This document shows positions 25,219 to 40,683 of a DNA stretch of 42,263 nucleotides, piece by piece (position 1 is the first letter of the stretch; the number at the start of each line of letters is the position of its first letter). A model generated the notes under the pieces. It was not told the origin of the DNA. It saw only the letters and a list, made by a program, of their open reading frames with translations, and did not search any database. Position numbers and translations under genes: made by a program. Source of the stretch: an uncultured Lachnospiraceae bacterium (GTDB lineage: Bacteria; Bacillota; Clostridia; Lachnospirales; Lachnospiraceae); assembly GCA_902781895.1 (NCBI GenBank), contig CACZLA010000015.1, forward strand, positions 1-42,263, read 5' to 3'.

Positions 25219-25464
25219 ATGGATACAAGACCGGCAATTATTGCAGTTATTATAGAAGATAATGAGTCAGTTAAGGAGTTCAATGCAATTCTTCATGAAT
25301 ATGCAGAATATGTCATAGGACGTATGGGTATCCCTTACAGAACAAAGGGGATTAACATCATAAGCGTAGCAGTGGATGCACCGCAGGATGTGACAAGCTC
25401 TATGGCCGGACGGATAGGAAGGCTGAAGGGCGTAACCGCAAAGACGGTTTATTCAAATATATAA
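25219..25464 (+). CDS. TM1266-type iron-only hydrogenase system regulator (ACT-like)
   Basis: An 81-residue protein of the TM1266 family (TIGR03959), small ACT-like proteins encoded next to HydE/F/G genes and thought to regulate the [FeFe]-hydrogenase system. Visible features are a first strand AIIAVIIED, the helix KEFNAILHEYAEYVIGRMGI, NIISVAVDAPQD, and GRIGRLKGVTAKTVYS at the end. I set the start at 25219, where GGAGGG precedes it; the longer in-frame extension to 25111 overlaps the divergent promoter zone and shows no family similarity. It is separated from hydF by a regulated leader. It has no obvious DNA-binding motif, so its mode of action is uncertain. Confidence 0.85.
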   Translation: MDTRPAIIAVIIEDNESVKEFNAILHEYAEYVIGRMGIPYRTKGINIISVAVDAPQDVTSSMAGRIGRLKGVTAKTVYSNI

Positions 25465-25474
25465 GACCTTTAAA

Positions 25475-25532
25475 GACATTATTTTGCAATTAATATCGGA
25501 CTTTTAGGACATTATTTTGCTATTAATATCGG
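25475..25532 (+). repeat. Two direct repeats upstream of the hydF promoter (candidate operator)
   Basis: A 25-base sequence beginning GACATTATTTTGC and ending ATTAATATCGG occurs at 25475-25499 and again at 25508-25532 with one mismatch (A to T). The copies are 33 bp apart start to start, about three helical turns, and the second ends exactly at the -35 box. This geometry fits paired binding of an activator or repressor on one DNA face. Confidence 0.75.
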
Positions 25533-25561
25533 TTGGATGTTGATGCAAAATATGCTATAAT
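25533..25561 (+). promoter_or_regulatory. Promoter of the hydF-hydE-nitrogenase-like cluster
   Basis: TTGGAT (25533-25538), 17-bp spacer, TATAAT (25556-25561) with TGC in front, an extended -10. The start point would be near 25568. It lies directly after the direct repeats and before the structured leader. Confidence 0.75.
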
Positions 25562-25567
25562 TAAAGG

Positions 25568-25711
25568 CCAGTAAATTAATAGATATGAAACCGACCTGAC
25601 ATCGAAACCCGGCTTTACGAAACCGGCTTGAGATGAAAGCTTAGTGAACCCTATATTTTATAAACGGGATTACTGCGCTCTTTCGTGTGTCGGGAGAGCG
25701 CTTTATTTTTT
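25568..25711 (+). promoter_or_regulatory. Structured 5' leader with terminator, class not recognised (candidate riboswitch/attenuator)
   Basis: About 145 bases of untranslated leader between promoter and terminator. It has two similar segments of the type CGAAACCCGGCTTTA and ACGAAACCGGCTTGA (about 25593-25632) and a stem AGTGAACCC (25643-25651) with GGGATTACT (25666-25674) directly abutting the terminator stem. No ORF with a ribosome binding site is visible in it. It matches none of the riboswitch consensus sequences I can recall (SAM, cobalamin, Moco, NiCo, c-di-GMP-I, THF, T-box), so the ligand is unknown. Confidence 0.55.
25675..25711 (+). terminator. Leader terminator upstream of hydF
   Basis: Stem GCGCTCT (25675-25681) with AGAGCGC (25695-25701), followed by TTTATTTTTT. 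It lies 94 bp before hydF, after the promoter, so it would end transcription unless an alternative fold forms upstream. Confidence 0.8.
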
Positions 25712-25804
25712 GATAATAATTCAAAATAATCCGCTGGGGTTCCATTTGACTGATATAAGGACATAGGTGTCAATGACACCCACATCATATAAGGAGATTT
25801 GTAT

Positions 25805-27001
25805 ATGGGATTAAATGATACGCCTTCGGGTGAGAGGCTGAGAATAAGCTTCTTCGGAAAAAGAAATGCAGGAAAATCCAGTCTGGTAAATGCTGTGACA
25901 AATCAGGAGCTGGCAGTTGTTTCCGACACAAAGGGAACTACTACGGATCCGGTGTCTAAGGCAATGGAGCTTCTTCCACTGGGACCGGTGCTTATTACGG
26001 ATACTCCCGGATACGATGACAGCGGTGCACTGGGAGAACTGAGAGTAAAGAAAACAAAACAGATACTCAATAAGACAGATATAGCTGTTCTTGTGACAGA
26101 TGCAACTATGGAAACAGACGATTCGGAAAAGGAACTGATAAGTCTGTTTAAAGAGAAGGATATACCATTTGTGGTTGTTCGAAATAAGTCCGACTTGATT
26201 GATGAGGCATCAGTCAGCGGAGCTGATGACAGCAGCAGGATAGTGTTTACAAGTGCGACTGAAAAGAAAAATATAGAGGAGCTGAAAAATGTTATCGGGT
26301 CACTGAGACCGGATGATGAAAATAAGGTTCGTCTCGTGGGAGATATCATTTCCCCTAAGCAGCTTATAGTTCTTGTTATCCCCATAGACGAGTCTGCTCC
26401 GAAGGGCAGACTGATACTTCCTCAGCAGCAGACGATAAGGGATATTCTGGAGAGCGGGGCTTATGCCGTGACTACCAGAGAAACTGAACTTGCAGCACTT
26501 CTTGAAAAGATGAATCCGAAGCCGGATCTTGTAATAACCGACAGTCAGGCATTTGAAAAAGTAAGTAAGGATGTTCCGGAGGATATAAAGCTTACATCCT
26601 TCTCAATACTGATGGCCAGATACAAGGGCTTCCTTGATACAGCTGTAAAGGGAGCAAGAGCCATAGATGAGTTAAGAGACGGTGACAAGGTTCTTATCAG
26701 TGAAGGCTGCACTCACCACAGACAGTGCGGTGATATCGGAACCGTAAAGCTTCCGAACTGGCTCAGAAAAAGAACCGGAAAAGATATCGTGATAGAGACA
26801 AGCTCCGGAACTGAGTTCCCGGAGAACTTGGAAGAATATGCCCTCATTATTCACTGCGGCGGATGTATGCTCAGTCAGCGTGAGATGACATATCGTATGA
26901 AATGTGCCATTGACGCAGGGGTTCCATTTACAAACTATGGAACTGCGATTGCATTTATGAAGGGGATACTTGAGAGAAGTCTGAGACCGATTTACGGATA
27001 A
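25805..27001 (+). CDS. hydF: [FeFe]-hydrogenase maturation GTPase HydF
   Basis: A 398-residue scaffold protein of H-cluster assembly. N-terminal GTPase domain with Walker A GKRNAGKS (18-25), TTTDP, DTPGYDD and RNKSD (NKxD); dimerisation domain in the middle; C-terminal cluster domain with EGCTHHRQCGD (Cys302, His304) and IIHCGGC (Cys351, Cys354), the CxH...HCxxC ligand pattern. In the known pathway it receives the diiron subcluster and loads it on HydA. Start at 25805 chosen for AAGGAG 8 bases upstream; the TTG at 25799 is too close. Here it heads the nitrogenase-like cluster and is followed by hydE after 11 bp. No hydA or hydG lies in the window. Confidence 0.95.
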   Translation: MGLNDTPSGERLRISFFGKRNAGKSSLVNAVTNQELAVVSDTKGTTTDPVSKAMELLPLGPVLITDTPGYDDSGALGELRVKKTKQILNKTDIAVLVTDATMETDDSEKELISLFKEKDIPFVVVRNKSDLIDEASVSGADDSSRIVFTSATEKKNIEELKNVIGSLRPDDENKVRLVGDIISPKQLIVLVIPIDESAPKGRLILPQQQTIRDILESGAYAVTTRETELAALLEKMNPKPDLVITDSQAFEKVSKDVPEDIKLTSFSILMARYKGFLDTAVKGARAIDELRDGDKVLISEGCTHHRQCGDIGTVKLPNWLRKRTGKDIVIETSSGTEFPENLEEYALIIHCGGCMLSQREMTYRMKCAIDAGVPFTNYGTAIAFMKGILERSLRPIYG

Positions 27002-27012
27002 AGGAAATTATA

Positions 27013-28080
27013 ATGAGAAGTAACAAACTATTGATCGATAAACTTCATGATCAGCATAGTCTCGCCGGAGATGAGTGGACGCAACTCTTCGAATCATACA
27101 CTGAAGAAGACAGGCTTTATGCGGCTGAAAAGGCACGCGCAGTTGCTGACGCTGTGTATGGCAAGGATGTTTACATCCGAGGAATAGTAGAGTTCTCAAA
27201 TATATGCTCGCGTAACTGTTATTACTGCGGCCTGAGAGCCGGTAATAATAATCTCGACAGATACAGGTTGGACGCAGATGATATCCTGGAGTGTTGCAGG
27301 GATGGATACAGATACGGTTTCAGAACATTTGTACTTCAGAGCGGAGAGGATCCGCACTACAGCACTGAGATGATCTGCGGTATAGTCAGGCGGATAAAAG
27401 AGGAGTTTCCGGACTGTGCGGTTACGCTTTCAATCGGAGAGAAATCATACGAGGATTATAAGGCCTTTAAGGAGGCCGGGGCTGACAGATATCTGCTCCG
27501 CCATGAGACCGCAAATGAGGAGCATTACGGAAAACTCCATCCTGAAAGCATGTCCTGGAAAAATCGTATGAGATGTCTGGATGATCTGAAGAAGCTGGGG
27601 TATCAGACCGGATGCGGAGTGATGATAGGTTCGCCGTATCAGACCACTCAGTGTCTTGTGGATGACATGCTTTATATGGCAGAGTTTAAGCCTGAGATGA
27701 TAGGCCTCGGACCATTTCTTCCTCACAGCGATACACCCTTCAGAGATAAACCGAAGGGCTCTTACGAGACGACACTTTTCATGATCAGTCTCTGCCGTCT
27801 CATGTTCCCGAGTGCTCTGATTCCTGCAACTACAGCCCTTGGAACAATAAAGCCGGATGGAAGAGAACAGGGGGTTCTGGCAGGGGCAAATGTGATCATG
27901 CCGAATCTTTCCCCGGTGAAGGTAAGGGATAAATACATGCTTTATGATAACAAGATCTGCACGGGTGATACCTCATCTGAGTGCAGAGGCTGTATCGAAC
28001 GAAGAATGGAATCTATCGGATACAAGGTTGTAATCGGACGTGGAGATTATGTGCCGTATGGGGACGGTTCTTCTATGTAA
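27013..28080 (+). CDS. hydE: [FeFe]-hydrogenase maturation radical SAM enzyme HydE
   Basis: A 355-residue radical SAM TIM-barrel enzyme. The SAM [4Fe-4S] motif is CSRNCYYC (Cys65, Cys69, Cys72); the accessory cluster cysteines are Cys316, Cys324 and Cys327 (ICTGDTSSECRGC). Motifs such as RHETANEEHY and LGPFLPHSDTP are characteristic of HydE rather than BioB or PylB. In H-cluster synthesis HydE processes the Fe(CO)2(CN)-cysteine synthon made by HydG. The protein runs to GRGD, the usual end region, and is then extended by a tail YVPYGDGSSM encoded by a copy of a palindromic repeat that supplies the stop codon. Followed by a nifH-like gene 38 bp on. Confidence 0.95.
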   Translation: MRSNKLLIDKLHDQHSLAGDEWTQLFESYTEEDRLYAAEKARAVADAVYGKDVYIRGIVEFSNICSRNCYYCGLRAGNNNLDRYRLDADDILECCRDGYRYGFRTFVLQSGEDPHYSTEMICGIVRRIKEEFPDCAVTLSIGEKSYEDYKAFKEAGADRYLLRHETANEEHYGKLHPESMSWKNRMRCLDDLKKLGYQTGCGVMIGSPYQTTQCLVDDMLYMAEFKPEMIGLGPFLPHSDTPFRDKPKGSYETTLFMISLCRLMFPSALIPATTALGTIKPDGREQGVLAGANVIMPNLSPVKVRDKYMLYDNKICTGDTSSECRGCIERRMESIGYKVVIGRGDYVPYGDGSSM

Positions 28081-28106
28081 CGTAGAACTGTCCCTGTATG
28101 GAACAT
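28050..28106. repeat. Palindromic repeat, short copy (overlaps hydE 3' end)
   Basis: About 57 bp starting TGTGCCGTATGGGGACGGTT and ending TGTCCCTGTATGGAACAT. It equals the left and right ends of the 151-bp copies at 33073 and 39512 joined without the central part, and can fold into one hairpin. It encodes the last residues and stop of HydE. Confidence 0.85.
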
Positions 28107-28118
28107 TGGAGGAATAAT

Positions 28119-28871
28119 ATGATTAAATTTGCGATATATGGAAAAGGCGGAATAGGAAAGTCCACACTTTCTTCAAACTTAAGTGCAGCTTTTGCTAAAA
28201 GAGGGCTTACGGTGATGCAGATAGGCTGCGATCCGAAGGCTGATTCAACATCCCTTCTCTGTCCGAAGGAGAAGATTACAACGGTGCTGGATCTGGTGAG
28301 GAGCGGCAAGCCGTTCACACTTGAGGATATGGTGAAGGAAAGTACGGCAGGCGTTCTCTGCGTTGAAGCAGGAGGTCCGGTTCCCGGATTGGGATGTGCG
28401 GGAAGAGGCATCATAAATGCATTGGAGTCACTGGAGAATAAAGGTGCCTACGAGGTATATAAACCGGATGTTGTCATCTACGATGTACTTGGAGATGTTG
28501 TCTGCGGCGGCTTTACTATGCCTATGAGAAAGGGCTATGCCGATAAGGTATACATCGTGACCTCGGGAGAGAAGATGGCCGTCTATGCTGCGGCAAATAT
28601 TGCAATGGCTATAGATAACTTCAAGAAACGTGACTATGCAAAGCTGGGAGGCTTTATCCTCAACTGCCGCGGAGTAGAGAATGAAGAGGAAAATGTACAG
28701 ACTCTCGCAAAGGATTTCGAGTCAGAGGTGGTAGCTAACATCCCAAGGAGTCCTCTCTTTGATAAAGCAGAGGCGGCAGGCAAGACAGTTGTTGAGCTTT
28801 TTCCCGACAGTGATATATGCGAGAAGCTGCTGAAGCTGGCAGACAGGATAGTTGCTGATTTTAAAGAATGA
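28119..28871 (+). CDS. NifH-like Fe protein 1 (nitrogenase-like reductase component)
   Basis: A 250-residue P-loop ATPase of the NifH/BchL/CfbC family. P-loop GKGGIGKS (8-15), switch I region GCDPKADST, the two cysteines that bridge the [4Fe-4S] cluster in the dimer, Cys93 (GLGCAGRG) and Cys129 (GDVVCGG), all present, so ATP-driven electron transfer is expected. It is shorter than bona fide NifH (about 275-295) at the C-terminus. The ATG at 28119 has GGAGG in front; the one at 28098 lies in the repeat. The nearest partner genes are the nifD-like and nifK-like genes directly downstream, giving an H1-D1-K1 set. Identity with the second NifH in this window is substantial but far from complete. 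Confidence 0.93.
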
Positions 28872-28923: not shown

Positions 28924-30357
28924 ATGATAAAGAAGTTAAACACGGATGAAAACCGAATACCGGATGCCATAAGGCTTTCTGAACTGGATTTTCCGAATCC
29001 ATTTTACGAGGGGCTTCAGTACAATGCCCCGGCACGTGGTGTATGGAATATAGTTCACACGGGAATGCTCATCCCCGAGTCTCATCAGGTTTATGTCTGT
29101 GCCCAGGGATGCCTTCGGGGTGTTATCCTGACAGCTGCCGAGATGAACGATATGCAGCGAATGTCTTGGGTGGCACTTCGTGAGAGTGATATGTGGAACG
29201 GGGAAATGGAAAGACGTGTCATCGAGGGTACTGCACATATCATTGAGAAGCTGAAGGAAAGGATAGAATCCGGAGAGGATAAAACACTAAAGCTTCCGAA
29301 ATGCGTTCTGATATATCTCAGCTGTATGCACATGTTCGAGGGTTGTGATTTTAATATAATAACAGATGAACTATCGGAAATGTATCCTGATATCGACTTT
29401 GTTGAGTGCTTTATGATTCCAACCATGAGAAAGACTATGTCCCCGGATGGGATGATGAAGATAAGTCTTTATAAAGCTGTAAAGAAACAGGAAAAGGATG
29501 AAAATCTCGTGGCACTTGTGGGAAGTAATCTTCCATTTGATAAAGAGTCGGATGTATGTGAGCTGATAAAGATGGCAGGAAGAAATATCTGGGATATAGC
29601 CGACTGTGAAAGCTACGAAGACTATCTGAAGCTTGGTTCGGCTCCCCTTATGATATCCTATCTGTCGGTTGCCGATGCGTCCTGTAAACAGATGGCGAGA
29701 AGATTTGAGAATGAGTGGGAGAGAATGCTACTCAGATTTGATGAAGAAAAGTTGGAAGCTGATCTGCTGAGATTGGGTGAAAAGCTGGGACTCTGTGATC
29801 AGGTGAACATTGCCGGCGAAAAAGATGCAGTAAGGAACTTTATAGAGAAGTCAAGAAGCGATGCATACGAAGCACTTGACAGGGCACATGAGATTATAGG
29901 AGATACACCGATAGCTATTGACTACACCGCATTTCCTTACATCATTGAACTTGCCGAGCTTCTGACAAAGCATGGCTTCAATGTAACCAGACTTTACAGT
30001 GACGGATTTCCTGCAGATGAAAAGGATGCATTTGAAAGGCTGAAAAAATCAAAGCCGGATATAATGGTTTATCCGACTAACGAACCGGCCATGAGATTTG
30101 CCGCAAGGGAGAATCATGAAGAACGTATTGATACTACCGCTACAGACGTGAAAGATGAAAAAATACTGGCTATCGGACAGAAGGCGGCATATTTCACCAA
30201 TACCTCCTATTTTGTAGACATCGTGGAGGGTGGCGGAATGTATGGTTATAAAGCCATAGTGAAACTGGCGGGATTAATGACAGAAGCATATCAGAAGCCA
30301 AAGGATACAAAAAAGGTTATCAGCCACAAGGGCTTCGGATGCGAGAGCTGTTTGTAA
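28924..30357 (+). CDS. Nitrogenase-like component 1, NifD-like subunit 1
   Basis: A 477-residue protein of the nitrogenase component 1 superfamily (NifD/NifE/BchN/CfbD). In the P-cluster-like region it has VYVCAQGCLRG (Cys59, Cys63) and, after the linker helices, YLSCMHMFEGCDFN (Cys134, Cys141), the position of NifD Cys154. The first P-cluster cysteine of NifD (GCAYAG region) has no counterpart, so the cluster is probably a [4Fe-4S] or variant rather than an 8Fe P-cluster. The C-terminus is unusual: GFGCESCL, a CxxC that could bind metal or be redox-active. Start at 28924 follows AGGG by 7 bases; a longer frame would overlap the nifH-like gene by 20 bp. Substrate unknown. Confidence 0.85.
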   Translation: MIKKLNTDENRIPDAIRLSELDFPNPFYEGLQYNAPARGVWNIVHTGMLIPESHQVYVCAQGCLRGVILTAAEMNDMQRMSWVALRESDMWNGEMERRVIEGTAHIIEKLKERIESGEDKTLKLPKCVLIYLSCMHMFEGCDFNIITDELSEMYPDIDFVECFMIPTMRKTMSPDGMMKISLYKAVKKQEKDENLVALVGSNLPFDKESDVCELIKMAGRNIWDIADCESYEDYLKLGSAPLMISYLSVADASCKQMARRFENEWERMLLRFDEEKLEADLLRLGEKLGLCDQVNIAGEKDAVRNFIEKSRSDAYEALDRAHEIIGDTPIAIDYTAFPYIIELAELLTKHGFNVTRLYSDGFPADEKDAFERLKKSKPDIMVYPTNEPAMRFAARENHEERIDTTATDVKDEKILAIGQKAAYFTNTSYFVDIVEGGGMYGYKAIVKLAGLMTEAYQKPKDTKKVISHKGFGCESCL

Positions 30358-30373: not shown

Positions 30374-31588
30374 ATGAATCAGACTGCAAGAATCATATCT
30401 ATATATGCTGCCGATACATCGGGATTCTGCTCCGCACTTTTTGAGTATGGTGGGATGTCGGTGATCCACGATGCCTCCGGCTGCAACTCAACATATACAA
30501 CACATGACGAACCCAGATGGTATGACATGGACAGCATGATGTACATCTCAGGACTCACGGAAAGTGATGCCGTAATGGGAAATGATGAGAAGTTTGTGAC
30601 GGACCTGGTTCTCGCCGCAGAGGAACTGAAACCTGAGTTTGTTGCCATCTGTGCATCGGCCCTTCCGGCCATGGTGGGGATTGACATGGAGGCCATCGCT
30701 TACGAGGTGGAGTCTCAGACGAATATTACTTCCTTTGAGGTAAAGACAAATGCCATGCAGAGCTATATAACAGGTGCCGGAAATGCATTTAAAGAGCTTG
30801 CAGGCAGATTTACCCGGGATAAAATGTGGTCGCCTGCTTCAGGTGACGCAGAGTTAAAGGTTAATATCCTGGGACTTACTCCTTTGGATTTTCCTCTTCA
30901 CGGAACGTGCGAAGCTATGGGTGAATGGCTTAAGTCAAATGGACTTAAAGTGAATGCCTATGTCGGCATGCACCCTGTGAATAAGGATGCCAATGATGGT
31001 GAAGAGGGAAATAAAGAAAAGAAAGATACGCACAATCTGGATGAGATTGTAAGACTTACGGATGCAAATGTAAACCTGGTGGTATCATCCGTCGGAAAGC
31101 CTCTGGCAGATTACCTCTATGAGAAGTATGGGATACCCTGTGTTGTGGGAACTCCCTATGGGAAAGCATTTTCCGAACTTTTGGTGGAAGACCTGAAAAA
31201 AGCAGCTGTGCAGGGGGAAAATATATACTCGGCGAAGAATCGTGGAGCGGCTGATTCAAACATAGTTGTAATAGGAGAAAGCATAACTTCTGCTTCACTT
31301 GCCGCGGCACTTTATCATGAGAAGGGTAAATCCCCGAGAGTACTTGAGAGCGTGGGAGATGGGGATATGAACGTGTTAAATGGACCGGATGACATTTCCT
31401 GTACTGAAGAGGATGAGCTTGAGAAGGAACTCTCAAAGGCCGAAACTATCATAGCCGATCCGTTGTTTGAACCCATATGTAATGGAAAGAAGTTTATCAG
31501 ACTTCCTCATTCAGCATTTTCAGGCAGGTGCTTTACCAGAGAGGAAATGAATCTGATAAATACTTCACTTGATAAGCTTGGAGTTTAG
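30374..31588 (+). CDS. Nitrogenase-like component 1, NifK-like subunit 1
   Basis: A 404-residue component 1 homologue, the likely partner of the NifD-like subunit encoded 16 bp upstream. Three cysteines fall at the NifK P-cluster positions: Cys19 (SGFCSALFEYGG), Cys37 (DASGCNSTY) and Cys93 (VAICASALPAMVGIDM). The EPRW motif after the second cysteine is shared with the second NifK-like protein, showing that both belong to one subfamily. It is shorter than NifK (about 520), lacking the long N-terminal extension, and resembles the reduced size of BchB/NifN-like proteins. AAGGA lies 8 bases before the ATG. Confidence 0.85.
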   Translation: MNQTARIISIYAADTSGFCSALFEYGGMSVIHDASGCNSTYTTHDEPRWYDMDSMMYISGLTESDAVMGNDEKFVTDLVLAAEELKPEFVAICASALPAMVGIDMEAIAYEVESQTNITSFEVKTNAMQSYITGAGNAFKELAGRFTRDKMWSPASGDAELKVNILGLTPLDFPLHGTCEAMGEWLKSNGLKVNAYVGMHPVNKDANDGEEGNKEKKDTHNLDEIVRLTDANVNLVVSSVGKPLADYLYEKYGIPCVVGTPYGKAFSELLVEDLKKAAVQGENIYSAKNRGAADSNIVVIGESITSASLAAALYHEKGKSPRVLESVGDGDMNVLNGPDDISCTEEDELEKELSKAETIIADPLFEPICNGKKFIRLPHSAFSGRCFTREEMNLINTSLDKLGV

Positions 31589-31620
31589 GTCTGATGTTGT
31601 CAGATATTTTCGGAGGGCGT

Positions 31621-32256
31621 ATGAATGATAATGTTATAAGCCGATTTATAAAGGCTATGAAGGAGAGCTTAAATCTGAATATCGTTGAAGTGAGTTTTGA
31701 CAAAAGGAGTGAGAGCTTTTTTTCTGCCGGAGAGGATAGTAGAGTTGTTCCGTATCTGAGGTTGATGGCACTGGGGAAGTCCTATGATGAGCTTATAGGC
31801 GAGCCGGAAAGGATGGGACTGGTGGACGAGTCCAGAGTTCCTGAAATCCGTACTCTGTGGCGTGAAACTCTGGACAGAAATGCTGAAGACTATAATGAGT
31901 GGTATGATGAGCTTATGTATATAGGCATTGGCAGATATGATGATCTATGCTTCTCAAAATTCGCATATGAACATAAGGATGAAGTTTTTAATTATCTTGT
32001 GAAGAGGCTTGGGAAGCCACCGAAGGCTGTCTACGCCTCAAGCAGTCCGGGAATTAATATAGTATATGAAACAGCTGATTATAAGACGCTGATGATCGAA
32101 TATAAGCAGGACAATATGATATATGACATAAAAGAGATGGCGAAACAATTTGTGAAGAAAGAATATGGTGGCGAGATCGTATGTAATCTACACGTTAAGT
32201 TCTGGCATCCTGAAATGCAGGGCTACAGTGGTTACGGACTTTCACGTCAGGACTAA
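31621..32256 (+). CDS. Unknown protein, 211 aa, within the nitrogenase-like cluster
   Basis: I do not recognise this protein. It is soluble, rich in Glu, Tyr and Lys, with no signal peptide or membrane helix. A middle segment ETLDRNAEDYNEWYDELMY is acidic and aromatic. Possible metal ligands are Cys in YDDLCFSK and EIVCNLHVKFWH, the latter with two His. The start at 31621 is preceded by GGAGGG; the in-frame ATG at 31594 lies 5 bases after the nifK-like stop without a binding site. Its position between K1 and H2 on the same strand suggests a third subunit, small regulator or assembly factor of the nitrogenase-like system. No nif accessory family could be assigned by eye. Confidence 0.75.
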   Translation: MNDNVISRFIKAMKESLNLNIVEVSFDKRSESFFSAGEDSRVVPYLRLMALGKSYDELIGEPERMGLVDESRVPEIRTLWRETLDRNAEDYNEWYDELMYIGIGRYDDLCFSKFAYEHKDEVFNYLVKRLGKPPKAVYASSSPGINIVYETADYKTLMIEYKQDNMIYDIKEMAKQFVKKEYGGEIVCNLHVKFWHPEMQGYSGYGLSRQD

Positions 32257-32319: not shown

Positions 32320-33072
32320 ATGATAAAGATAGCTATTTACGGCAAGGGTGGTATAGGTAAGTCAACAGTGACGTCAAACCTTTCGGCTGCTCTTGCATCC
32401 CTTGGAAAAAAAGTAATACAGATCGGTTGTGATCCGAAGGCGGATTCGACGGCAAATCTCCTGAATGGAAATCCGGTCACTCCGGTAATGAATTATATGC
32501 GTGAGTTTGATGAGGAACCAACCTCACTGGATCAGATTACAAAGGAAGGATTCGGTGGAGTAGTCTGCATAGAAACAGGTGGCCCCACACCAGGACTCGG
32601 CTGTGCAGGACGTGGAATCATCACTACATTTTCACTCTTGGAGGAGTTGGAGCTCTTTAAGAAATATAAACCGGACGCAGTGCTTTACGACGTGCTGGGT
32701 GACGTAGTCTGTGGCGGTTTTGCGGCACCGATAAGAGAAGGCTACGCTGAGAAGGTCCTCATAGTTACATCCGGTGAGAAGATGGCACTCTATGCAGCCA
32801 ACAACATCAACACAGCCGTTAAGAATTTCGAGGACAGAAGCTACGCAAAGGTCCGAGGAATAGTCATGAACCGTCGTGCGGTCGAAAACGAAGAAGAAAA
32901 GGTCCGTGCATTTGCTGAGAAAAATAACCTCGATATCGTTGCAGATATTCCACGAACCAATGACATCATCCACTACGAAGACATGGGAAAAACAGTCATC
33001 GAAGGTGATCCGACACTTGAGGTAAGCAAGCGCTTCCTTGAACTGGCGCAGATGCTGATCGACGAAGAATAA
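32320..33072 (+). CDS. NifH-like Fe protein 2 (nitrogenase-like reductase component)
   Basis: A 250-residue NifH-family ATPase: P-loop GKGGIGKS (8-15), GCDPKADST, cluster cysteines Cys95 (GLGCAGRG) and Cys131 (GDVVCGG). Same length as Fe protein 1 and clearly a paralogue, but different in the middle ([15 protein letters not shown] versus [13 protein letters not shown]) and C-terminus, which are the surfaces that dock component 1. This suggests each Fe protein serves its own component 1 pair. GGGAGG precedes the ATG. Its stop codon directly abuts a 151-bp palindromic repeat. Confidence 0.93.
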
Positions 33073-33244: not shown

Positions 33245-34591
33245 ATGAAAGAAGCATATTATAAAACAACAAAAGAATTGGCGGAGCTTGGGCTGGATAA
33301 GCTTCCGGGGGAAATGAAGTCGGGGGAACATCTTATATACAGCTCACCGGCAACGCTTTATTTTAATTCTCCGGGTGCGAAGGGCTTCGGTGTAAAGAGA
33401 GCGGGACTTGCAGTTCCTGAGTCGGTGATGCTGCTGGTTTCACCGGGCTGCTGCGGAAGAAATACATCCCTTTTCAGAGTAGAACCTCAGTACAGGGATA
33501 AGTTCTTCTTCATGCTGCTGGATGATACGGACATCGTAACAGGAAGACATCTGACGAAAATCCCGCAGGCGGCTGAGGAGGTGCTGGAGTCATTAGAAAA
33601 AACTCCATCCGCCATCATGATCTGTATCACCTGTGTGGATGCACTTCTCGGTACTGACATGGAAAGAGTGTGCCGAAAGGTGGTTGAGAAAACAGGTGTT
33701 CCTGCAGTTGCCTGCTATATGTATGCCCTGACACGAGAAAAGAGACTTCCGCCTATGGCGGCTGTCAGAACCAGTGTTTATTCACTGCTTGAAAAAAGAG
33801 AAAAGCGCAGCTCCGTGGACATGAATATAATGGGCTACTTCACACCACTTTTTGACAGCTGTGAGTTGTATGACCTGATGAAGGGAATAGGCATAAGAAA
33901 TATCAGAGAGCTTTCGAGATGCAAGACCATAGAAGAATATCATGAGCTTTCAAATGCAAACTTCAGCCTTGTGCTGAATCCCGAGGCCAGAGCCGCCGCA
34001 CAGGATATGCAGGAAAGGCTGGGCATTCCATTTATCGAGCTGCTGAGACTTTACAGGATCGACAAGATTCATAATCAGTATAAGCTCCTGGGACAGGCCC
34101 TTGGTTCGGAAATAAATGATGAAGAATATTATCAGAAGGCCAGAAAAACCATAGATGATTTTAAGGCGAAGTACGGTTCCTTCAGCTTCTCGGTTGGCGA
34201 GATCCAGAACGGTGATCCGATAGAAATGTCACTCATGCTGGTAGAGGAAGGCTTCAAGGTAAAAGAGATATTCGCAACTGTCGGAGAACTCAATTTCAGA
34301 TTCTTAAAGAGACTGGCAGAGCTGAGTCCGGATACGAAGGTTTATTCGAATCTGTCTCCGTCGATGATGCATTATGGTATGTCAGACATTTCCGGTGAGA
34401 CGGATGAAAAAACAGATGGAAAAATGGATGGCATTCCGGATGCATACATCGGTTCGGATGTCCAGTATTACCATCCGGAGGTTCCGGGAATAGAGTGGTG
34501 CGATGATGATCAGCCCTTCGGATTCGACGGAGTGATAAAGCTGTTTGAAAGACTTGACGATGTACTTAAGAATAAAGGAAAGATAGAATGA
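33245..34591 (+). CDS. Nitrogenase-like component 1, NifD-like subunit 2
   Basis: A 448-residue component 1 superfamily protein. Cluster-region cysteines are LVSPGCCGRNTS (Cys69, Cys70), equivalent to the GPVGC position of NifD, and MICITCVDALLGTDME (Cys127, Cys130), equivalent to the third P-cluster cysteine. As in NifD-like 1, the first cysteine is missing. The GTDME motif marks the family. GAGGAAAT precedes the ATG. The end overlaps the nifK-like gene by 4 bp (ATGA), so the two are translationally coupled and surely form a complex. A low-complexity acidic insert near residues 385-400 (TDEKTDGKMDG) looks like a surface loop. Product and substrate unknown. Confidence 0.85.
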   Translation: MKEAYYKTTKELAELGLDKLPGEMKSGEHLIYSSPATLYFNSPGAKGFGVKRAGLAVPESVMLLVSPGCCGRNTSLFRVEPQYRDKFFFMLLDDTDIVTGRHLTKIPQAAEEVLESLEKTPSAIMICITCVDALLGTDMERVCRKVVEKTGVPAVACYMYALTREKRLPPMAAVRTSVYSLLEKREKRSSVDMNIMGYFTPLFDSCELYDLMKGIGIRNIRELSRCKTIEEYHELSNANFSLVLNPEARAAAQDMQERLGIPFIELLRLYRIDKIHNQYKLLGQALGSEINDEEYYQKARKTIDDFKAKYGSFSFSVGEIQNGDPIEMSLMLVEEGFKVKEIFATVGELNFRFLKRLAELSPDTKVYSNLSPSMMHYGMSDISGETDEKTDGKMDGIPDAYIGSDVQYYHPEVPGIEWCDDDQPFGFDGVIKLFERLDDVLKNKGKIE

Positions 34592-35736
34592 AGAAACTAC
34601 TGAAATACCTCTCACCCTTTGCACCTGATCAGTCGGGGGCATGCGGAGTTCTATACGAACTCGGAGGGATAATAGTTATATGCGACGCAGGTGGCTGCGC
34701 CGGAAATATATGCGGCTTTGATGAACCCAGATGGTTCACCAGCAAAAGTGCGGTCTTCAGTGCCGGACTCCGTGATATGGATGCGATAATGGGGCGTGAT
34801 GACAAGCTTATCGAAAAGCTGTCCAAGGCTCAGGAGCAGATAGGAGCCAAATTCTCCGCACTGGTTGCAACGCCGGTTCCTGCTGTTATCGGAACTGATA
34901 TGAAAGCACTGAAACGTATGGCTGAAAAGAAGCTTGGCGTTCCCTGTATATCGATCAATGCCATAGGAACCAAATACTACGATGTGGGAGAGCAGGAAGC
35001 ATGGCTGCAGCTGTTTGAGACCTTTGCGGGAGAAGCAGATGACAGGAAAGATTCTGTGATTACAGATGAGAAATCAGCTGAAAACACAATAAAAAACACA
35101 ATCGGAATCATCGGCGCAACACCTTTTGAAACCGGTTATTCAACGGACAAGCCACTGAAAAAGTATCTGGAAAAAGCAGGATACGAAAACAGCGTTATCT
35201 ATACAGTAGGAACAACTCTGGAAGATATAAAATTGGCGGGAGCCCGTGAGAAGAATCTCGTGGTAAGTGCCGCCGGGATCAAAGCAGCAGAGTACCTTAA
35301 GGAAAAGTTCGGAACTCCATACGAGGTTGGATTCCCATTTATTCCGGATGAGGTAATAAATGATGCAAAGAACGCTTTGGGTAGAATCCTCATCATCCAT
35401 TCACAGTTTGCTGCAAATGAGATGAGAAACATTCTCCTGAATAGTGGTGATGAATCGAATGATAAAAGTGATTCATCAAGTGCGATCGACTGCGCTACAT
35501 TTTTCACTCTTCTTCCTGAATATGCTGAGAAGGGAGACATACAGCTCTCAGGTGAGGACGACTTGTGGGAGCTGGCAGCTGAAGGCGATTACGACCTGAT
35601 AATCGCTGATGCGGATATGGAAAGACTTGTACGGGCTGCAGGCTATAAAGGCGAGTTTGTGGACTTTCCACACTTCGCAGTTTCCGGCAAGATGAATGAT
35701 GATTCGGTTATGTTCTTTACTCAGATGACAGAATAA
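34588..35736 (+). CDS. Nitrogenase-like component 1, NifK-like subunit 2
   Basis: A 382-residue protein homologous to NifK-like 1: SGACGVLYELGG (Cys19), DAGGCAGNICGFDEPRW (Cys37), but the third position, Cys93 in the other copy, is Val in SALVATPVPAVIGTDM. Loss of one of three ligands means its cluster must be bound differently, perhaps with an extra cysteine (Cys32 or Cys42) or a non-Cys ligand as seen with the Asp ligand of BchB. Acidic, Ser/Asp-rich segments near 150 and 290 are probably loops. Start overlaps the stop of the NifD-like gene. hypF follows after 78 bp. Confidence 0.84.
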   Translation: MKKLLKYLSPFAPDQSGACGVLYELGGIIVICDAGGCAGNICGFDEPRWFTSKSAVFSAGLRDMDAIMGRDDKLIEKLSKAQEQIGAKFSALVATPVPAVIGTDMKALKRMAEKKLGVPCISINAIGTKYYDVGEQEAWLQLFETFAGEADDRKDSVITDEKSAENTIKNTIGIIGATPFETGYSTDKPLKKYLEKAGYENSVIYTVGTTLEDIKLAGAREKNLVVSAAGIKAAEYLKEKFGTPYEVGFPFIPDEVINDAKNALGRILIIHSQFAANEMRNILLNSGDESNDKSDSSSAIDCATFFTLLPEYAEKGDIQLSGEDDLWELAAEGDYDLIIADADMERLVRAAGYKGEFVDFPHFAVSGKMNDDSVMFFTQMTE

Positions 35737-35814: not shown

Positions 35815-38187
35815 ATGCTTACAAATATAATAAGAGTATATGGCATAGTCCAGGGTGTCGGCTTCAGACCATTTGTGAGCCGGATATGCCTGGCCAATAA
35901 CATAACCGGGACAGTATCGAACCGCGGCTCATATGTGGAAATATATGCACAGGGCGAAAATGTGAGTAACCTTCTTGCGTCTCTTCGTTACAGTGCGCCT
36001 GACAGGGCAATGGTGCTGAACGTGATAAACCAGATGGCTGACATGCCGCCTTTTGAAGGCTTTGAGATAATCGAGAGTGAGAAAGACGAGGGGGATATAT
36101 TTGTCTCACCTGATATAGCAATTTGTGATAAATGTAAGACAGAGTTGTACGATAGATCAGATCGTAGATACATGCATCCCTTCATCAATTGTACCAACTG
36201 CGGCCCGAGGCTTACAATCCTCGACAACATGCCCTACGACCGGGAGCGTACCAGTATGAAAAGCTTTCCCATGTGTCCGGAGTGCGAGTATGAATATACT
36301 CATCCCGAGACCAGACGTTACGATGCACAGCCTGTATGCTGTCCGAACTGCGGACCTGAGGTTTATCTGATGTCAAAAGAAGATGACAAACTGGTTCCGA
36401 CAGATATCAAGGGGCGCGAGGCCATCATAAAAACAAGACAGGCTATCGCCGAAGGTAAGATAGTTGCGATAAAGGGTATCGGAGGATTTCATCTATGCTG
36501 TGATGCCAAAAGTGAAGAGGCTGTTTCAAGACTGAGACTTCTTAAGAATCGTCCTATGAAACCATTTGCGGTGATGATGAAGGATACCGATACAGTTAAA
36601 CGGGAGTGCAGGATAGAAAATCCGGAAATGTATGAATATCTCACAGGTCATCAAAAACCGATAATCCTCATGGAAAGAAAGGAAGATTCATCTCTCTGTG
36701 AATCCGTTGCTCCTGACAATCCTATGGTGGGAGTCATGCTTCCATATACACCGATACACTGTCTGCTTTTTGACTATGATTCCGGCGATGAAACCGGTGA
36801 TATAAACAGCACAGAGGTTTCCGACTGTCTCATCATGACCAGTGCAAATGCATCCGGTGCTCCGATATGCAGAACTGATGAGGATGTAACGGAGGAGATA
36901 AGCAGCTTCTGTGATCTGGTGCTTTCGAATAACAGGATGATAAGGACCAGAGCGGATGATACAGTGTTGGACTTTACTCTTGGTCATCCATATATGATAA
37001 GACGTTCGAGAGGCTTTGCTCCGCTTCCGATAATGATCGGAGCCGGTGGGCTTCAGAGTAAGCAGGAAAGACAGGGGTTGAGTCCCGCAAGAAGTCATGT
37101 CCTGGCCATAGGCGGAGAGCTGAAGAATACATTTGCCATTGCAAAGAATAAACTTATCTATCCATCGGCATACGTCGGCGACATGGCGGATATCAGAACC
37201 GTAAATGCACTTGAAGAGTCAGTGGACAGGATGATCGACTTACTTGAGGCTCGTCCTGAGGTGGTTGTGTCAGATCTTCATCCGAAGTATAATACTACTG
37301 CGGTTGCTGAAGAGTTCAGCGAGAAGCTGGGCGTGCCGCTGATTAAAATTCAGCATCACTGGGCACACATTCTTTCCTGTATGGCGGAGAATGATTATCT
37401 GGACGATGTGATCGGAGTTTCCTTCGATGGAACCGGTTACGGAACGGACGGGACCATCTGGGGAGGAGAATTCCTGAGATGCGGTGTGAAGGATTTTGAC
37501 AGGCTTTCGCATATAACGCCATTCATGCAGTGTGGTGGAGACCTTTCATCGAAGGAAGGATGGAGGATTGCTGCTGCGATCCTGCCGGAGGAAATGTGTA
37601 CTGAGAAGCTTGGAATCTGTTCCTCCATGGAATACGGCATGCTGAAAAATATGGCTGACAAGGGAATCAACGCTGTTAAGTCAACAAGCGCAGGACGTCT
37701 CTTCGATGCCATGAGTGCGGTGCTGGGGATAAGGCGCAGCTCGACCTTTGAGGGCGAGGCATCAACGTCGCTTATGTTTGCGGCCCAGAGATATCTGAAG
37801 AGTGCCGGGACCGGCAGTCTGCTGGAAGATATCCTGAAGGACTCTGCAAGGCATGCAGCATACGACGACACAAACAGGATGCTTTCGGATCTTGCGAGTG
37901 TTTATATAGAAGAAGGAAACAGAGACAAATGTGCATTTATGTTCCACTTCGATCTGGCAAATATGATCGCAGAGAGATGCATGAAGCACAGCAATGAAAC
38001 AGGTATAAAGACCGCAGCTCTCAGCGGAGGAGTTTTCCAGAATAAGCTTCTCCTTTCCATGACGGAAAAGCTGCTGAGGGAAAATGGATTAAGAGTTTTA
38101 TGCCATAGTCTGATACCGCCAAACGACGGAGGAATCGCGGCAGGACAGGCGTTGGCCGGAATGTATATCAATGACGATTTGAAGTAA
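35815..38187 (+). CDS. hypF: Carbamoyltransferase HypF
   Basis: A 790-residue multi-domain enzyme that turns carbamoyl phosphate and ATP into a carbamoyl adenylate and carbamoylates the C-terminal Cys of HypE, the source of cyanide ligands. Domains in order: acylphosphatase (VQGVGFRPF, 12-20), two zinc fingers (CDKCK...CTNCGPR and CPECEYEY...CCPNCGP), YrdC-like domain (IKGIGGFHLCCDA, RPMKPFAVM), and Kae1-like domain (VSDLHPKYNTT, QHHWAHILS, SFDGTGYG, SGGVFQNK). All appear intact. Strong AAAGGAG before the ATG. It lies directly downstream of the second nifDK-like pair; no [NiFe]-hydrogenase gene or hypA/hypB is present in the window. Confidence 0.96.
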   Translation: MLTNIIRVYGIVQGVGFRPFVSRICLANNITGTVSNRGSYVEIYAQGENVSNLLASLRYSAPDRAMVLNVINQMADMPPFEGFEIIESEKDEGDIFVSPDIAICDKCKTELYDRSDRRYMHPFINCTNCGPRLTILDNMPYDRERTSMKSFPMCPECEYEYTHPETRRYDAQPVCCPNCGPEVYLMSKEDDKLVPTDIKGREAIIKTRQAIAEGKIVAIKGIGGFHLCCDAKSEEAVSRLRLLKNRPMKPFAVMMKDTDTVKRECRIENPEMYEYLTGHQKPIILMERKEDSSLCESVAPDNPMVGVMLPYTPIHCLLFDYDSGDETGDINSTEVSDCLIMTSANASGAPICRTDEDVTEEISSFCDLVLSNNRMIRTRADDTVLDFTLGHPYMIRRSRGFAPLPIMIGAGGLQSKQERQGLSPARSHVLAIGGELKNTFAIAKNKLIYPSAYVGDMADIRTVNALEESVDRMIDLLEARPEVVVSDLHPKYNTTAVAEEFSEKLGVPLIKIQHHWAHILSCMAENDYLDDVIGVSFDGTGYGTDGTIWGGEFLRCGVKDFDRLSHITPFMQCGGDLSSKEGWRIAAAILPEEMCTEKLGICSSMEYGMLKNMADKGINAVKSTSAGRLFDAMSAVLGIRRSSTFEGEASTSLMFAAQRYLKSAGTGSLLEDILKDSARHAAYDDTNRMLSDLASVYIEEGNRDKCAFMFHFDLANMIAERCMKHSNETGIKTAALSGGVFQNKLLLSMTEKLLRENGLRVLCHSLIPPNDGGIAAGQALAGMYINDDLK

Positions 38188-38190
38188 TAA

Positions 38191-38226
38191 AGATTGTCAT
38201 TCTGAGGGCAAAGCCCGAAGAATCTT
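38191..38226. repeat. GTCATTCTGAG-type dispersed repeat, copy 2
   Basis: AGATTGTCATTCTGAGGGC then AAAGCCCGAAGAATCTTT, a variant with the GGGC/GCCC inner stem. It lies in the hypF-hypC gap. Confidence 0.75.
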
Positions 38227-38249
38227 TATAATAACGGAGGTAAATAAAA

Positions 38250-38456
38250 ATGTGTGTAGGACTTGCGGCAAAGGTTGTAAGTGTAAAGGATGGTACTGCA
38301 GTTATCGATGCGAGCGGTGCTAAAAGAGATGTAAGTGCAGAGCTTCTTGAGGATCTTGAACCGGGTGATTATGTTATGGTTCATGCAGGAGTTGCTATAT
38401 CAAAAATAACATCCGATGATGAGAGTGAAGCAAAGGGTGTCATGGAGGATTTATAA
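38250..38456 (+). CDS. hypC: Hydrogenase maturation chaperone HypC
   Basis: A 68-residue HypC/HupF/HybG family protein. The mature N-terminus is MCVGLAAKV, with the conserved Cys2 that, with HypD, holds the Fe(CN)2CO unit. An OB-like fold follows (GTAVIDASGAKRDVSAELL, PGDYVMVHAGVAIS). The gene is preceded by CGGAGG and directly abuts hypD with no gap. In [NiFe]-hydrogenase maturation HypC hands iron to the large subunit; here the acceptor is unclear, because no such subunit is nearby. Confidence 0.95.
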   Translation: MCVGLAAKVVSVKDGTAVIDASGAKRDVSAELLEDLEPGDYVMVHAGVAISKITSDDESEAKGVMEDL

Positions 38457-39500
38457 ATGAGTGACGTTATCAAAAATGCCCGGGAGATAATCCAGAACTA
38501 TGACGGTCCGAAGCTTCGTATCATGGAGGTTTGCGGAACTCATACTCATGAGATATTCAAGCTGGGAATCAGAAGTCTCCTTCCAGAGAACATCGATCTG
38601 ATATCGGGACCGGGCTGTCCGGTCTGTGTTACTCCGGTAGGATTCATAGATGAGGCGATATATCTGGCACTGGAAAAGGGATGCGTTATCTGTACATTTG
38701 GCGATCTTATAAAGGTTCCGGGAACGAAAATGAATCTTGCAGGGGCGAGAACCGAGGGAGCAGATGTGCGACTGGTTTATTCACCTGATGATGCAGTGGA
38801 GCTTGCGAAGGATAATCCGGATATGCAGGTGGTATTCCTGTCAGTAGGATTCGAGACAACAACTCCGTCTGCATGTATAGCAGTGAAAAAGGCGGCGCGC
38901 CTCGGACTTAAAAACTTTTCAATACTCACGGCAAACAAGACAATGCCTTATGCATATGCGAAGCTGAAGGGAAGCGCAGACATATTCCTATATCCGGGAC
39001 ATGTAAATGCAATAACCGGAAATGCAGTCTGCGAACGTCTGAAGGACGAAGGAGTGTCCGGAGTTGTTGCAGGCTTTACAGCAAACGAACTTATGACAGC
39101 CCTTGCTGCTGCAATAGAGCTGTCAAAGAAGGGCGAGCCATTCTTCAAGAACTGCTATCCAAGAGTCGTGCTTCCGGAAGGAAATGTGGCAGCTCAGAAG
39201 CTGGTTGCATCAGTAATGGAGGAGTGCGATGCAGAGTGGCGTGGCCTGGGAATTATCGAGAAGTCAGGTATGAAACTGAGAGCTGAGTACACCGACTATG
39301 ATGCAAGAATTAAGTATGACATGCCGAAGATAGAAGGCAAGTCAAATCCTGCCTGCAGATGTCCTGAGGTTCTTCAGGGACACTGTAAGCCGACTGACTG
39401 CCCGCTGTTCGGCAAGGTCTGTGATCCGACACATCCTGTCGGAGCGTGCATGGTTTCTGACGAAGGAGCCTGCGCAGCATATTTTCACTACGGCATATAA
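38457..39500 (+). CDS. hypD: Hydrogenase maturation protein HypD
   Basis: A 347-residue [4Fe-4S] scaffold on which iron receives two CN and one CO ligands. Visible: VCGTHTHEI (Cys26, binds iron), GPGCPVCVTP (Cys54, Cys57 thiol pair), and the C-terminal cluster region CRCPEVLQGHCKPTDC with further cysteines. Start codon immediately follows the hypC stop, so the two are coupled. Followed by a palindromic repeat before hypE. Confidence 0.96.
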   Translation: MSDVIKNAREIIQNYDGPKLRIMEVCGTHTHEIFKLGIRSLLPENIDLISGPGCPVCVTPVGFIDEAIYLALEKGCVICTFGDLIKVPGTKMNLAGARTEGADVRLVYSPDDAVELAKDNPDMQVVFLSVGFETTTPSACIAVKKAARLGLKNFSILTANKTMPYAYAKLKGSADIFLYPGHVNAITGNAVCERLKDEGVSGVVAGFTANELMTALAAAIELSKKGEPFFKNCYPRVVLPEGNVAAQKLVASVMEECDAEWRGLGIIEKSGMKLRAEYTDYDARIKYDMPKIEGKSNPACRCPEVLQGHCKPTDCPLFGKVCDPTHPVGACMVSDEGACAAYFHYGI

Positions 39501-39511
39501 AGATGGTTCGA

Positions 39512-39662
39512 TGTGCCGTACGGGGACGGTTCTTCTATGTAACGCAGATCTGTCCCCATATGGCTTACACAATAAAGAAAGTGTCATTCAAAAAGGGACA
39601 GATCTATGCTACAGAAGGGACGGATATATGTGCCATAGAAGAACCGTCCCCATATGGAACAT
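39512..39662. repeat. Palindromic MITE-like repeat, long copy B
   Basis: Same element as at 33073, with about five substitutions and no gaps: starts TGTGCCGTACGGGGACGGTT and ends CCCCATATGGAACAT, with nested inverted repeats. It separates hypD from hypE and would form a long hairpin in the transcript. Confidence 0.9.
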
Positions 39663-39678
39663 AATGGAAGGAGAATAA

Positions 39679-40683
39679 ATGGAAGATGTGATCACACTGG
39701 CTCATGGTTCCGGCGGAGTCCAGACCAACGAGCTTATAAATAGTATTTTTAAAAAACATTTTGAGAGTCCGTATCTGACGGCAGATGATGCTGCGGTGCT
39801 GGATATTCCGGCAGGAAAGGTTGCGATGTCTACGGATGGCTTCATCGTTTCGCCTTACGAGTTTGCAGGGGGAAATATAGGTAAGCTTTCTATATGCGGA
39901 ACAGTGAATGATATAGCATGTATGGGGGCTAAGCCGAAATATCTTACATGCGCTATGGTCATCGAAGAGGGATTCCCTGTTGCAAAGCTGGATGAGATAG
40001 CAGGTGCTATGGCAGAAACCGCAAAGAAGGCCGGAGTTTATCTGGTTGCCGGTGATACAAAGGTTGCCGGTAAAGGACAGGTGGACAGTATATTTATCAC
40101 AACAACCGGTATAGGTCAGGTGATTGATGGTGCCGATACTTCGGGAGCTTATGCGAAGCCGGGGGATAAAATAATCGTGACCGGTGATATCGGAAGACAC
40201 GGATGTACGATCCTTCTTGCCAGAAATGATTTCAAGATCGATGCTGATATTACCAGCGACTGCGCACCGCTTAATAAAAATGTAGAAGCAGTGATTGAGG
40301 CTACTAAGGATGTTCATGTTATAAGAGACGCTACGCGTGGTGGAGTCGGAACTGTGCTTTATGAGATAGCAGGTGAAAGTGAAGTGGGAATCTCACTGGA
40401 TTATGAGAGTATCCCTGTTGCTGACGGAGTGAAGGGTGTATGCGGTATGCTGGGACTTGAACCGCTGTATCTGGCATGTGAAGGAAGACTTGTTATCTTT
40501 GCACCTGCAAGTGAAGCAGATAAAATAATAGACGCTCTTAAACAGTGCGAGAATTCAGAAGGTGCCTGTATTATAGGTGAAGTAACAGAGGAAAATAAGG
40601 GCAAAGTGGTAGTGACTACTGCAGTCGGAGCAAAGACTATGCTCTCAAGACCGAGCGGAGAGCTTCTGCCCAGAATCTGCTGA
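39679..40683 (+). CDS. hypE: Hydrogenase maturation protein HypE
   Basis: A 334-residue PurM-like ATPase that dehydrates the thiocarbamoyl group on its own C-terminal Cys to thiocyanate and passes cyanide to HypCD iron. LAHGSGG at the N-terminus, DATRGGVGTVLYEIA in the centre, and the obligatory C-terminal PRIC (Cys334) are all present. GGAAGGAG precedes the ATG. It is the last gene of the HypFCDE group and of the metallocofactor cluster. Confidence 0.96.
   Translation: MEDVITLAHGSGGVQTNELINSIFKKHFESPYLTADDAAVLDIPAGKVAMSTDGFIVSPYEFAGGNIGKLSICGTVNDIACMGAKPKYLTCAMVIEEGFPVAKLDEIAGAMAETAKKAGVYLVAGDTKVAGKGQVDSIFITTTGIGQVIDGADTSGAYAKPGDKIIVTGDIGRHGCTILLARNDFKIDADITSDCAPLNKNVEAVIEATKDVHVIRDATRGGVGTVLYEIAGESEVGISLDYESIPVADGVKGVCGMLGLEPLYLACEGRLVIFAPASEADKIIDALKQCENSEGACIIGEVTEENKGKVVVTTAVGAKTMLSRPSGELLPRIC

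Follow-up and report, generated by a model that had tools for sequence, protein, structure and literature searches.

The carbon monoxide and cyanide of [FeFe]-hydrogenases are held to come from HydG. The sections of PMC13360658 and PMC11736057 available to us describe how HydG makes an Fe(Cys)(CO)2(CN) complex, which is reduced and dimerised by HydE and completed by HydF, and those of PMC9431212 how HypCDEF, the maturation system of [NiFe]-hydrogenases, makes an Fe(CN)2(CO) group. According to the same part of PMC9431212, a search by motif detected no hydG in five of eight acetogenic Clostridium genomes with HydE, HydF and HypCDEF; variant HydG candidates were named for these organisms, and its authors pondered unidentified ways of ligand incorporation. 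Here, we analyse an operon of an uncultured Lachnospiraceae bacterium (GenBank assembly GCA_902781895.1, 2.35 Mb in 87 contigs, 91.7% complete) in which genes for HydF and HydE are followed by two nitrogenase-like NifHDK sets and by HypF, HypC, HypD and HypE. The window, i.e. the whole stretch of DNA analysed, is contig CACZLA010000015.1 (C15) at its full length of 42,263 bases. We propose, with a probability of roughly three in four, that the nitrogenase-like and Hyp proteins, together called the module, are a HydG-independent source of an Fe(CO)x(CN)y unit for HydE and HydF, and that the module would functionally replace HydG.

The acetogenic Clostridium genomes resemble the present case in having HydE and HydF without a motif-found HydG; nitrogenase-like genes are not mentioned in the part of PMC9431212 available to us. 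A description of the module, or of any link between nitrogenase-like proteins and H-cluster assembly, was not found in the open-licence PubMed Central papers searched, preprints not being covered and one of the searches extending to the best 20 of 2,544 papers. No system is known to us that uses nitrogenase homologues and Hyp proteins for assembling the H-cluster.

HydG in genomes carrying the module

The presence of HydG was assessed with TIGR03955 at its cut-off of 312 bits in 61 distinct genomes with the cluster, comprising 50 reached via named loci (50 of the 80 loci described below, chosen by us and mostly the longer ones) and 13 from the genus of the window, less two repeats (G062 and G107). 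None of the 50 and one of the 13 (G004) had a match over the cut-off, which leaves 60 of the 61 without HydG. In the window's own genome, the sole match of the model is HydE itself, at 60 bits. HydE-type matches were present in 60 of the 61 genomes, including all 13 of the genus; 49 of the 50 showed the score and range of HydE (42-89 bits), and for the fiftieth, G086, none was scored though its locus holds a HydE open reading frame (ORF). An additional TIGR03955 match of 174-199 bits was seen in 18 of the 50. Divergent HydG was rejected as an explanation, as the four matches that we classified are ThiH (504-524 bits versus a cut-off of 380). It is also unlikely that HydG was lost in assembly gaps, since the single-contig, 99%-complete genome G005 is without it as well. 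In the family of Ruminococcus albus, HydG was found in 165 of 396 genomes and in 0 of the 17 known cluster carriers of this sample, these 17 being the only genomes of the 396 with known cluster status.

Within the genus of the window, HydG is present in 6 of 37 genomes. The 18 HydE-positive members divide into twelve with the module only, five with HydG only, one with both and none with neither (Fisher p 0.0007). In the neighbourhoods compared, HydG was recognised by the position of the genus-wide HydG profile match. Three of the six HydG genomes (G012, G030 and G034) read TM1266-HydE-HydG-HydF; G002 and G011 have HydE, HydG and HydF without a TM1266 match, and in G004 TM1266 and HydG lie on a 3.1-kb contig. 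From the arrangement in these three congeners it follows that the module occupies the same operon frame as HydG. The window system thus shares with HydE-HydF-HydG maturation HydE, HydF and TM1266 in one operon and [FeFe]-hydrogenase homologues in the genome, but differs from it by the absence of HydG in 60 of 61 genomes and by the presence of NifHDK-NifHDK-HypFCDE instead. Its CO and cyanide would come from a source other than tyrosine.

In a tree of 66 HydE rows, 49 module-linked sequences, with at least two genomes entered twice, group in a single clade (100/100) that excludes all 11 HydG-linked sequences; five of these 11 belong to the genus of the window. The module-linked HydE of G064, G066, G021, L131 and L191 fall on the HydG side of the tree, as does the HydE of G052. 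The module label changes four times on this tree, at least two of the changes being forced by well-supported branches and placements being unsure where some of the long branches meet, which suggests that module and HydG replaced each other more than once. At thresholds of our own choosing, four positions separate 48 sequences of the cluster clade (counting neither L189 nor the five module-linked ones of the HydG side) from the 11 HydG-linked ones. An adaptation of the active site of HydE to the module was rejected, as there are only these four positions and we could link none of them to function.

Composition, order and spread of the operon

The ORF listing and the family profiles identify fourteen genes on the + strand at 25219-40683, in the order TM1266, HydF, HydE, NifH1, NifD1, NifK1, a 220-aa unknown, NifH2, NifD2, NifK2, HypF, HypC, HypD and HypE (Table 1). 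A preliminary description, drawn up from the letters of the DNA, had named the same fourteen same-strand genes and was right in this respect. A genome scan with an alignment of NifD2 gave 229 relatives, 80 of which were analysed as loci. Most of their hosts belong to rumen Lachnospiraceae or to Ruminococcus, with R. albus AR67 and KH2T6 among the latter, and some are metagenome-assembled genomes (MAGs) named Lentisphaeria. The ten-gene core NifH1-D1-K1-H2-D2-K2-HypF-C-D-E was complete, ordered and on one strand in 43 of the 80 loci, and in 32 others an ordered, unbroken part of it stopped no more than 1.5 kb from the end of the locus. In three loci (L146, L147 and L181), only HypE is missing despite 5 kb of downstream sequence; L153 lacks the first NifHDK set, and in L193 NifD1 stands ahead of NifH1. 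HydE accompanies the complete core in 34 of the 43 loci, HydE together with HydF in 25 and TM1266 in 37; across all 80 loci, HydE ORFs were found in 47 and HydF ORFs in 37.

Among the 37 members of the genus, 13 (counting that of the window) had relatives of NifK1 (E <= 1e-10), as against 0 of 24 genomes from other families of the order. In the twelve genus relatives, the order matches that of the window as far as the contigs extend, with extra genes in some and without HydF in the cluster or in the stretch examined in several. Since 43 of the 80 loci are complete and 32 hold ordered parts, the order is not strain-specific, and the possibility raised in the preliminary description that it might be unique to this strain can be set aside. 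The gene order is not due to chance and is widespread; a strain-specific oddity is rejected by its spread over the genus and the 80 loci.

Neither Pfam nor NCBIfam has a model that matches the 220-aa protein encoded between the two nitrogenase-like sets (E <= 0.001), and tblastn against the other cluster loci compared gave nothing at E <= 0.01. It was therefore rejected as a core part and looks like an insert. Other genes also occur within the otherwise conserved order. A microbial poly(ADP-ribose) glycohydrolase-like gene lies between HypF and HypC in G005 (L083:14270-15085), with ORFs of similar size at this place in several other loci, and the operon of G001 (L080) contains an ORF with choline-binding repeats (4132-5490) and one for dihydrofolate reductase (14004-14477).

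The hydrogenase as likely client

Because the genomes without HydG keep HydE-type and [FeFe]-hydrogenase matches, the H-cluster is the likely client of the module. PF02906 was found over its cut-off in 50 of 50 cluster genomes, G107 having just a fragment. The 30 PF02906 loci examined carry TSCCP in 23 cases and TSCSP in seven. R. albus AR67 and Ruminococcus FC2018, the latter with a single match, have TSCCP together with EIMACPGGC or EVMACPGGC (MACPGGC motif). In both R. albus AR67 and R. albus KH2T6, the module is present and HydG is absent; the part of PMC6288185 available to us describes R. albus as an H2 producer via HydABC, citing Zheng et al. 2014, for a strain that may differ from these two. 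The nitrogenase-like and Hyp proteins thus probably work for the H-cluster of the hydrogenase, and not the maturases for a nitrogenase-like enzyme. The theme that had been seen in the operon in the preliminary description, iron with CO and cyanide ligands combined with low-potential electron transfer, stands, and a reductase acting on such a unit, as considered there, fits our reading; the likely client was missed.

As a separate observation, the complete or nearly complete congeners G009 (L043, L101) and G003 (L046) carry [FeFe]-hydrogenase homologues of the TSCSP and TTSCCPAF forms and show no HydE or HydG match, HydF not having been searched for in these two.

The nitrogenase-like proteins

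All four D- and K-like proteins match PF00148 (36.5-91.5 bits versus a gathering score of 28.6) and both H-like proteins match PF00142, which by profile places them in the nitrogenase superfamily. By the same kind of comparison, the two sets fall outside the family of N2-fixing nitrogenase. Both NifH-like proteins remain below the cut-offs of nifH, CfbC, BchL and BchX, with 305 and 307 bits versus 394 for the nifH model, and the four D/K-like proteins reach at most 66 bits with the nifD/E/K/N models versus cut-offs of at least 327, being far under the cut-offs of all matched nifD/E/K/N and BchB models. The paralogous sets share 54% (H), 21% (D) and 27% (K) identity, and NifD1 is the most divergent subunit (PF00148 at only 36.5 bits). 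AlphaFold2 (AF2) models were made as single chains for NifD 1 and 2, with a predicted local distance difference test score (pLDDT) of 85.6 and 83.4, respectively. Their best Foldseek matches are nitrogenase and NifEN chains, from E 7e-17 for NifD1 and from E 1e-17 for NifD2, the top match being a nitrogenase chain in either case, and both models adopt the nitrogenase fold. This fold and the NifH-type partner are shared with NifEN, NifDK, BchNB, CfbCD and MarHDK. Unlike these, the window proteins lie under every NCBIfam cut-off encountered and differ in context and proposed role, and identity to NifD 1 and 2 is 10-18% among the Foldseek matches listed.

The counts given for invariant residues include the window protein and leave out partial proteins, which span less than 80% of the query. 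The cysteines C44, C88, C100 and C136 of NifH-like 1 are kept in 63/63 and C37, C83, C95 and C131 of NifH-like 2 in 76/76 aligned proteins. Each D and K subunit likewise has several invariant cysteines, which are candidate cluster ligands judging from the alignments: C83, C87, C158, C186 and C497 of NifD-like 1 (63/63; numbered from TTG at 28852, the ATG at 28924 being the more likely start on our reading of the alignment), C69, C70, C127 and C130 of NifD-like 2 (80/80), C19 and C37 of NifK-like 1 (69/69) and C37 and C42 of NifK-like 2 (71/71). In alignment, the stretch of NifD2 near C127/C130 corresponds to the TC motif of NifD/NifE, and both K subunits have a DEPRW motif (45-49) with each residue kept in at least 97%.

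A NifHDK-like set adjoining an iron ATP-binding cassette (ABC) transporter was found on plasmid pTS1 of Treponema saccharophilum (L286:9223-15519). It is the closest outgroup met for both sets of the module (H 55-60%, D 26-28% and K 30-34% identical) and shares the DEPRW motif in K, but consists of one set only, with neither hyd nor hyp genes in the stretch examined. The preliminary description had named nif-like genes occurring widely without hyp or hyd genes as a finding that would speak against it; such genes do exist on this plasmid, but they are distant, with D subunits 26-28% identical. Plasmids were rejected as carriers of the module, since the plasmid collection gave only this distant Treponema set.

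Proposed route to the H-cluster

The terminal Cys334 of HypE is kept in 50/50, Cys2 of HypC in 62/62 and C26, C54 and C57 of HypD in 60/60 aligned proteins. We take these to be functional residues of the Hyp system and, as they are intact, its cyanide chemistry should work. Equally invariant are C304, C310, C353 and C356 of HydF (37/37) and the CxxxCxxC motif of HydE (C65, C69 and C72; 47/47). Within the genus, HypD is present in 12 of 13 genomes with the module and in 1 of 24 without it (p 9e-8); in the thirteenth module genome, G022, the contig ends after HypF and one further ORF.

We suggest that HypF and HypE would convert carbamoyl phosphate to cyanide on the C-terminal cysteine of HypE, and that HypC-HypD would accept this cyanide on an iron, as in the assembly of [NiFe]-hydrogenases. 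The two ATP-driven complexes, NifH-NifDK 1 and 2, would supply the remainder of the contribution of HydG, most plausibly CO, formed from CO2 or a one-carbon precursor at low potential, and/or a reduction with exchange of ligands that would turn an Fe(CN)2(CO)-like into an Fe(CN)(CO)2-like unit. HydE would take the resulting unit in place of complex B of HydG and make the diiron precursor, which HydF would finish and load onto the [FeFe]-hydrogenase. CO2 is reduced to CO by nitrogenases as well as by their Fe proteins, and nitrogenases also accept cyanide as a substrate; nitrogenase-type proteins would be natural candidates for producing CO from CO2 or for a low-potential exchange of ligands. 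On this reading, CO would come from the module itself, and any assignment of the two complexes to the making or moving of a particular ligand is speculative. We consider it an even bet that this constitutes a second, chemically distinct route to the H-cluster, in which cyanide from carbamoyl phosphate and CO made or installed by nitrogenase-like complexes are given to HydE. Each of the protein families is known, but the combination and the chemistry would be new and unlike those of HydG.

If this is true, rumen bacteria have an alternative to HydG that is widespread among them, the picture of H-cluster assembly changes and nitrogenase-like enzymes gain a new role as builders of a hydrogenase cofactor, with the iron chemistry of [NiFe]-hydrogenase, [FeFe]-hydrogenase and nitrogenase joined in one operon. 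It would also bear on hydrogen, and hence methane, in the rumen, and the absence of HydG should then not label a genome as hydrogenase-negative. Finally, it would give a clue to where CO comes from in the anaerobic maturation of [NiFe]-hydrogenases, for which we know of no established source.

Points against the proposed route and alternative readings

Several observations weigh against the module as a source of the Fe(CO)x(CN)y unit. The mutual exclusion of HydG and module is visible only among the HydE-positive genomes of the genus; across all 37 genomes, significance is lost (p 0.39), as 19 of them have neither. G004, a MAG of 58% completeness, holds both. In G052 (99% complete; L266:9043-13291), TM1266-HydE-HydF adjoin a B12-binding radical S-adenosylmethionine (SAM) protein (DUF4080), and this genome gave neither HydG nor HypD nor a NifK1-like match (E <= 1e-10). 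HydE and HydF thus occur without HydG in another setting too, G052 being a possible third way. According to the part of PMC9431212 available to us, HydE and HydF without HydG give about 1% activation using stray diatomics, and such usable stray ligands could explain G052. On the basis of the same text, missing HydG calls can also be explained as limits of annotation. Furthermore, the HypCDEF product Fe(CN)2(CO) (PMC9431212) differs from the Fe(CN)(CO)2 unit used by HydE, so that one CN fewer and one CO more would be needed per iron.

The hydrogenases themselves add to these points. In the window's own genome (91.7% complete), the sole [FeFe]-hydrogenase homologue found has TSCSP for TSCCP, together with EIMGCPGGC. 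We take the second cysteine of TSCCP to be a ligand of the cubane and, because it is replaced, this homologue may be without a normal H-cluster. TSCSP is also the sole form seen in G007 (97% complete), G015 (93% complete) and the HydG-bearing G030, and it occurs in congeners without HydE or HydG matches (e.g. G003 and G009). Judged by these sequences, the H-cluster is no more than a possible client in the window's own genome. A match to the [NiFe]-hydrogenase large subunit profile PF00374, finally, was found in 5 of 60 other cluster genomes and none in 55.

The alternative that survives best, which we regard as unlikely, is that the Hyp and nitrogenase-like proteins make up, or help to mature, a different enzyme, a nitrogenase-like reductase with its own Fe-CO/CN cofactor, HydE and HydF being adjacent through shared regulation and the absence of HydG being unrelated. 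This would agree with the plasmid-borne Treponema set, which adjoins an iron transporter and has neither hyd nor hyp genes, with the TSCSP form as the only hydrogenase form in some cluster genomes, and with some Lachnospiraceae loci (L134, L138, L144 and others) that have the module without adjacent HydE or HydF. However, the two genomes of the latter kind that were checked, G064 and G066, have HydE elsewhere and are without HydG, and the module occurs in 0 of the 19 genus genomes without a HydE-type match. Nor would an unrelated function account for 60 of 61 cluster genomes being without HydG.

Alternatively, the module might aid HydE and HydF in another step, e.g. the dithiomethylamine bridge or the supply of low-potential electrons for HydE, with CO and CN- coming from a third source. 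The nature of nitrogenase-like proteins as reductases, the 1% activation by HydE and HydF alone reported in the available text of PMC9431212, and G052 with neither HydG nor module would all be compatible with such a role. We nevertheless judge it quite improbable, since HypCDEF, a set that makes cyanide, has retained its key cysteines, which puts a cyanide source within the operon, and since the absence of HydG where the module is present would go unexplained.

A proposed service of the Hyp proteins to the H-cluster sets them apart from the HypCDEF system of [NiFe]-hydrogenases, with which the operon shares HypF and the kept cysteines of HypE, HypC and HypD. Their product would feed HydE, and PF00374 is undetected in 56 of 61 cluster genomes, including the window's own; a [NiFe]-hydrogenase was rejected as client as its large subunit is absent from most of them. 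The worry raised in the preliminary description, that the same genome might hold [NiFe]-hydrogenase genes served by these hyp genes, is not borne out by the window's genome, nor by 55 of the 60 other cluster genomes. The five matches found score 47-51 bits, cover the first 68-69 positions only and lie in open frames of 358-366 aa. HypA, HypB and a protease are not among the identified genes of the operon; the genomes were not searched for HypA or HypB. That the hyp genes serve a [NiFe]-hydrogenase and hold their place in the operon incidentally is scarcely credible and already largely refuted: HypCDEF are the standard [NiFe] maturases, five genomes have the short PF00374 match and a genus member without the module (G032, which has HypD) carries HypC, HypD and HypE close to an Ech-like PF00346 protein, but PF00374 is otherwise absent as stated, PF00346 was found in 0 of the 13 genus cluster genomes, and in G071 a further HypC-like ORF lies near the PF00374 match, away from the cluster (L275).

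Features of the window

Table 1 Genes of the operon in the window, with the matches on which their assignment is based.
Feature	Position	Strand	Basis
TM1266-family regulator	25219..25464	+	TIGR03959 108 bits, cut-off 60.8; PF21699; ORF from 25111, likely start 25219
HydF, H-cluster scaffold GTPase	25799..27001	+	TIGR03918 564 bits, cut-off 326
HydE, radical SAM H-cluster maturase	27013..28080	+	TIGR03956 558 bits, cut-off 255
NifH-like 1	28098..28871	+	PF00142 288 bits
NifD-like 1	28924..30357	+	PF00148 36.5 bits; AF2 model and Foldseek
NifK-like 1	30374..31588	+	PF00148 91.5 bits; NifD/NifE structures at E about 3e-14
Orphan 220-aa protein	31594..32256	+	between two nitrogenase-like sets; no family match
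NifH-like 2	32320..33072	+	PF00142 301 bits
NifD-like 2	33245..34591	+	PF00148 90.5 bits; AF2 model and Foldseek
NifK-like 2	34588..35736	+	PF00148 81.8 bits
HypF, carbamoyltransferase	35815..38187	+	TIGR00143 704 bits, over cut-off
HypC, Fe(CN/CO) chaperone	38250..38456	+	TIGR00074 61 bits, over cut-off
HypD, Fe-cyanation scaffold	38457..39500	+	TIGR00075 393 bits, over cut-off
HypE with C-terminal PRIC tail	39679..40683	+	TIGR02124 418 bits, over cut-off

No Rfam element exceeded its gathering score in the window. Upstream of the operon, the window contains trp genes, which were named by eye except for two TrpB of different types at 12705-14078 and 18763-19977, i.e. a TrpB-like enzyme ahead of the trp genes and a canonical TrpB inside them.

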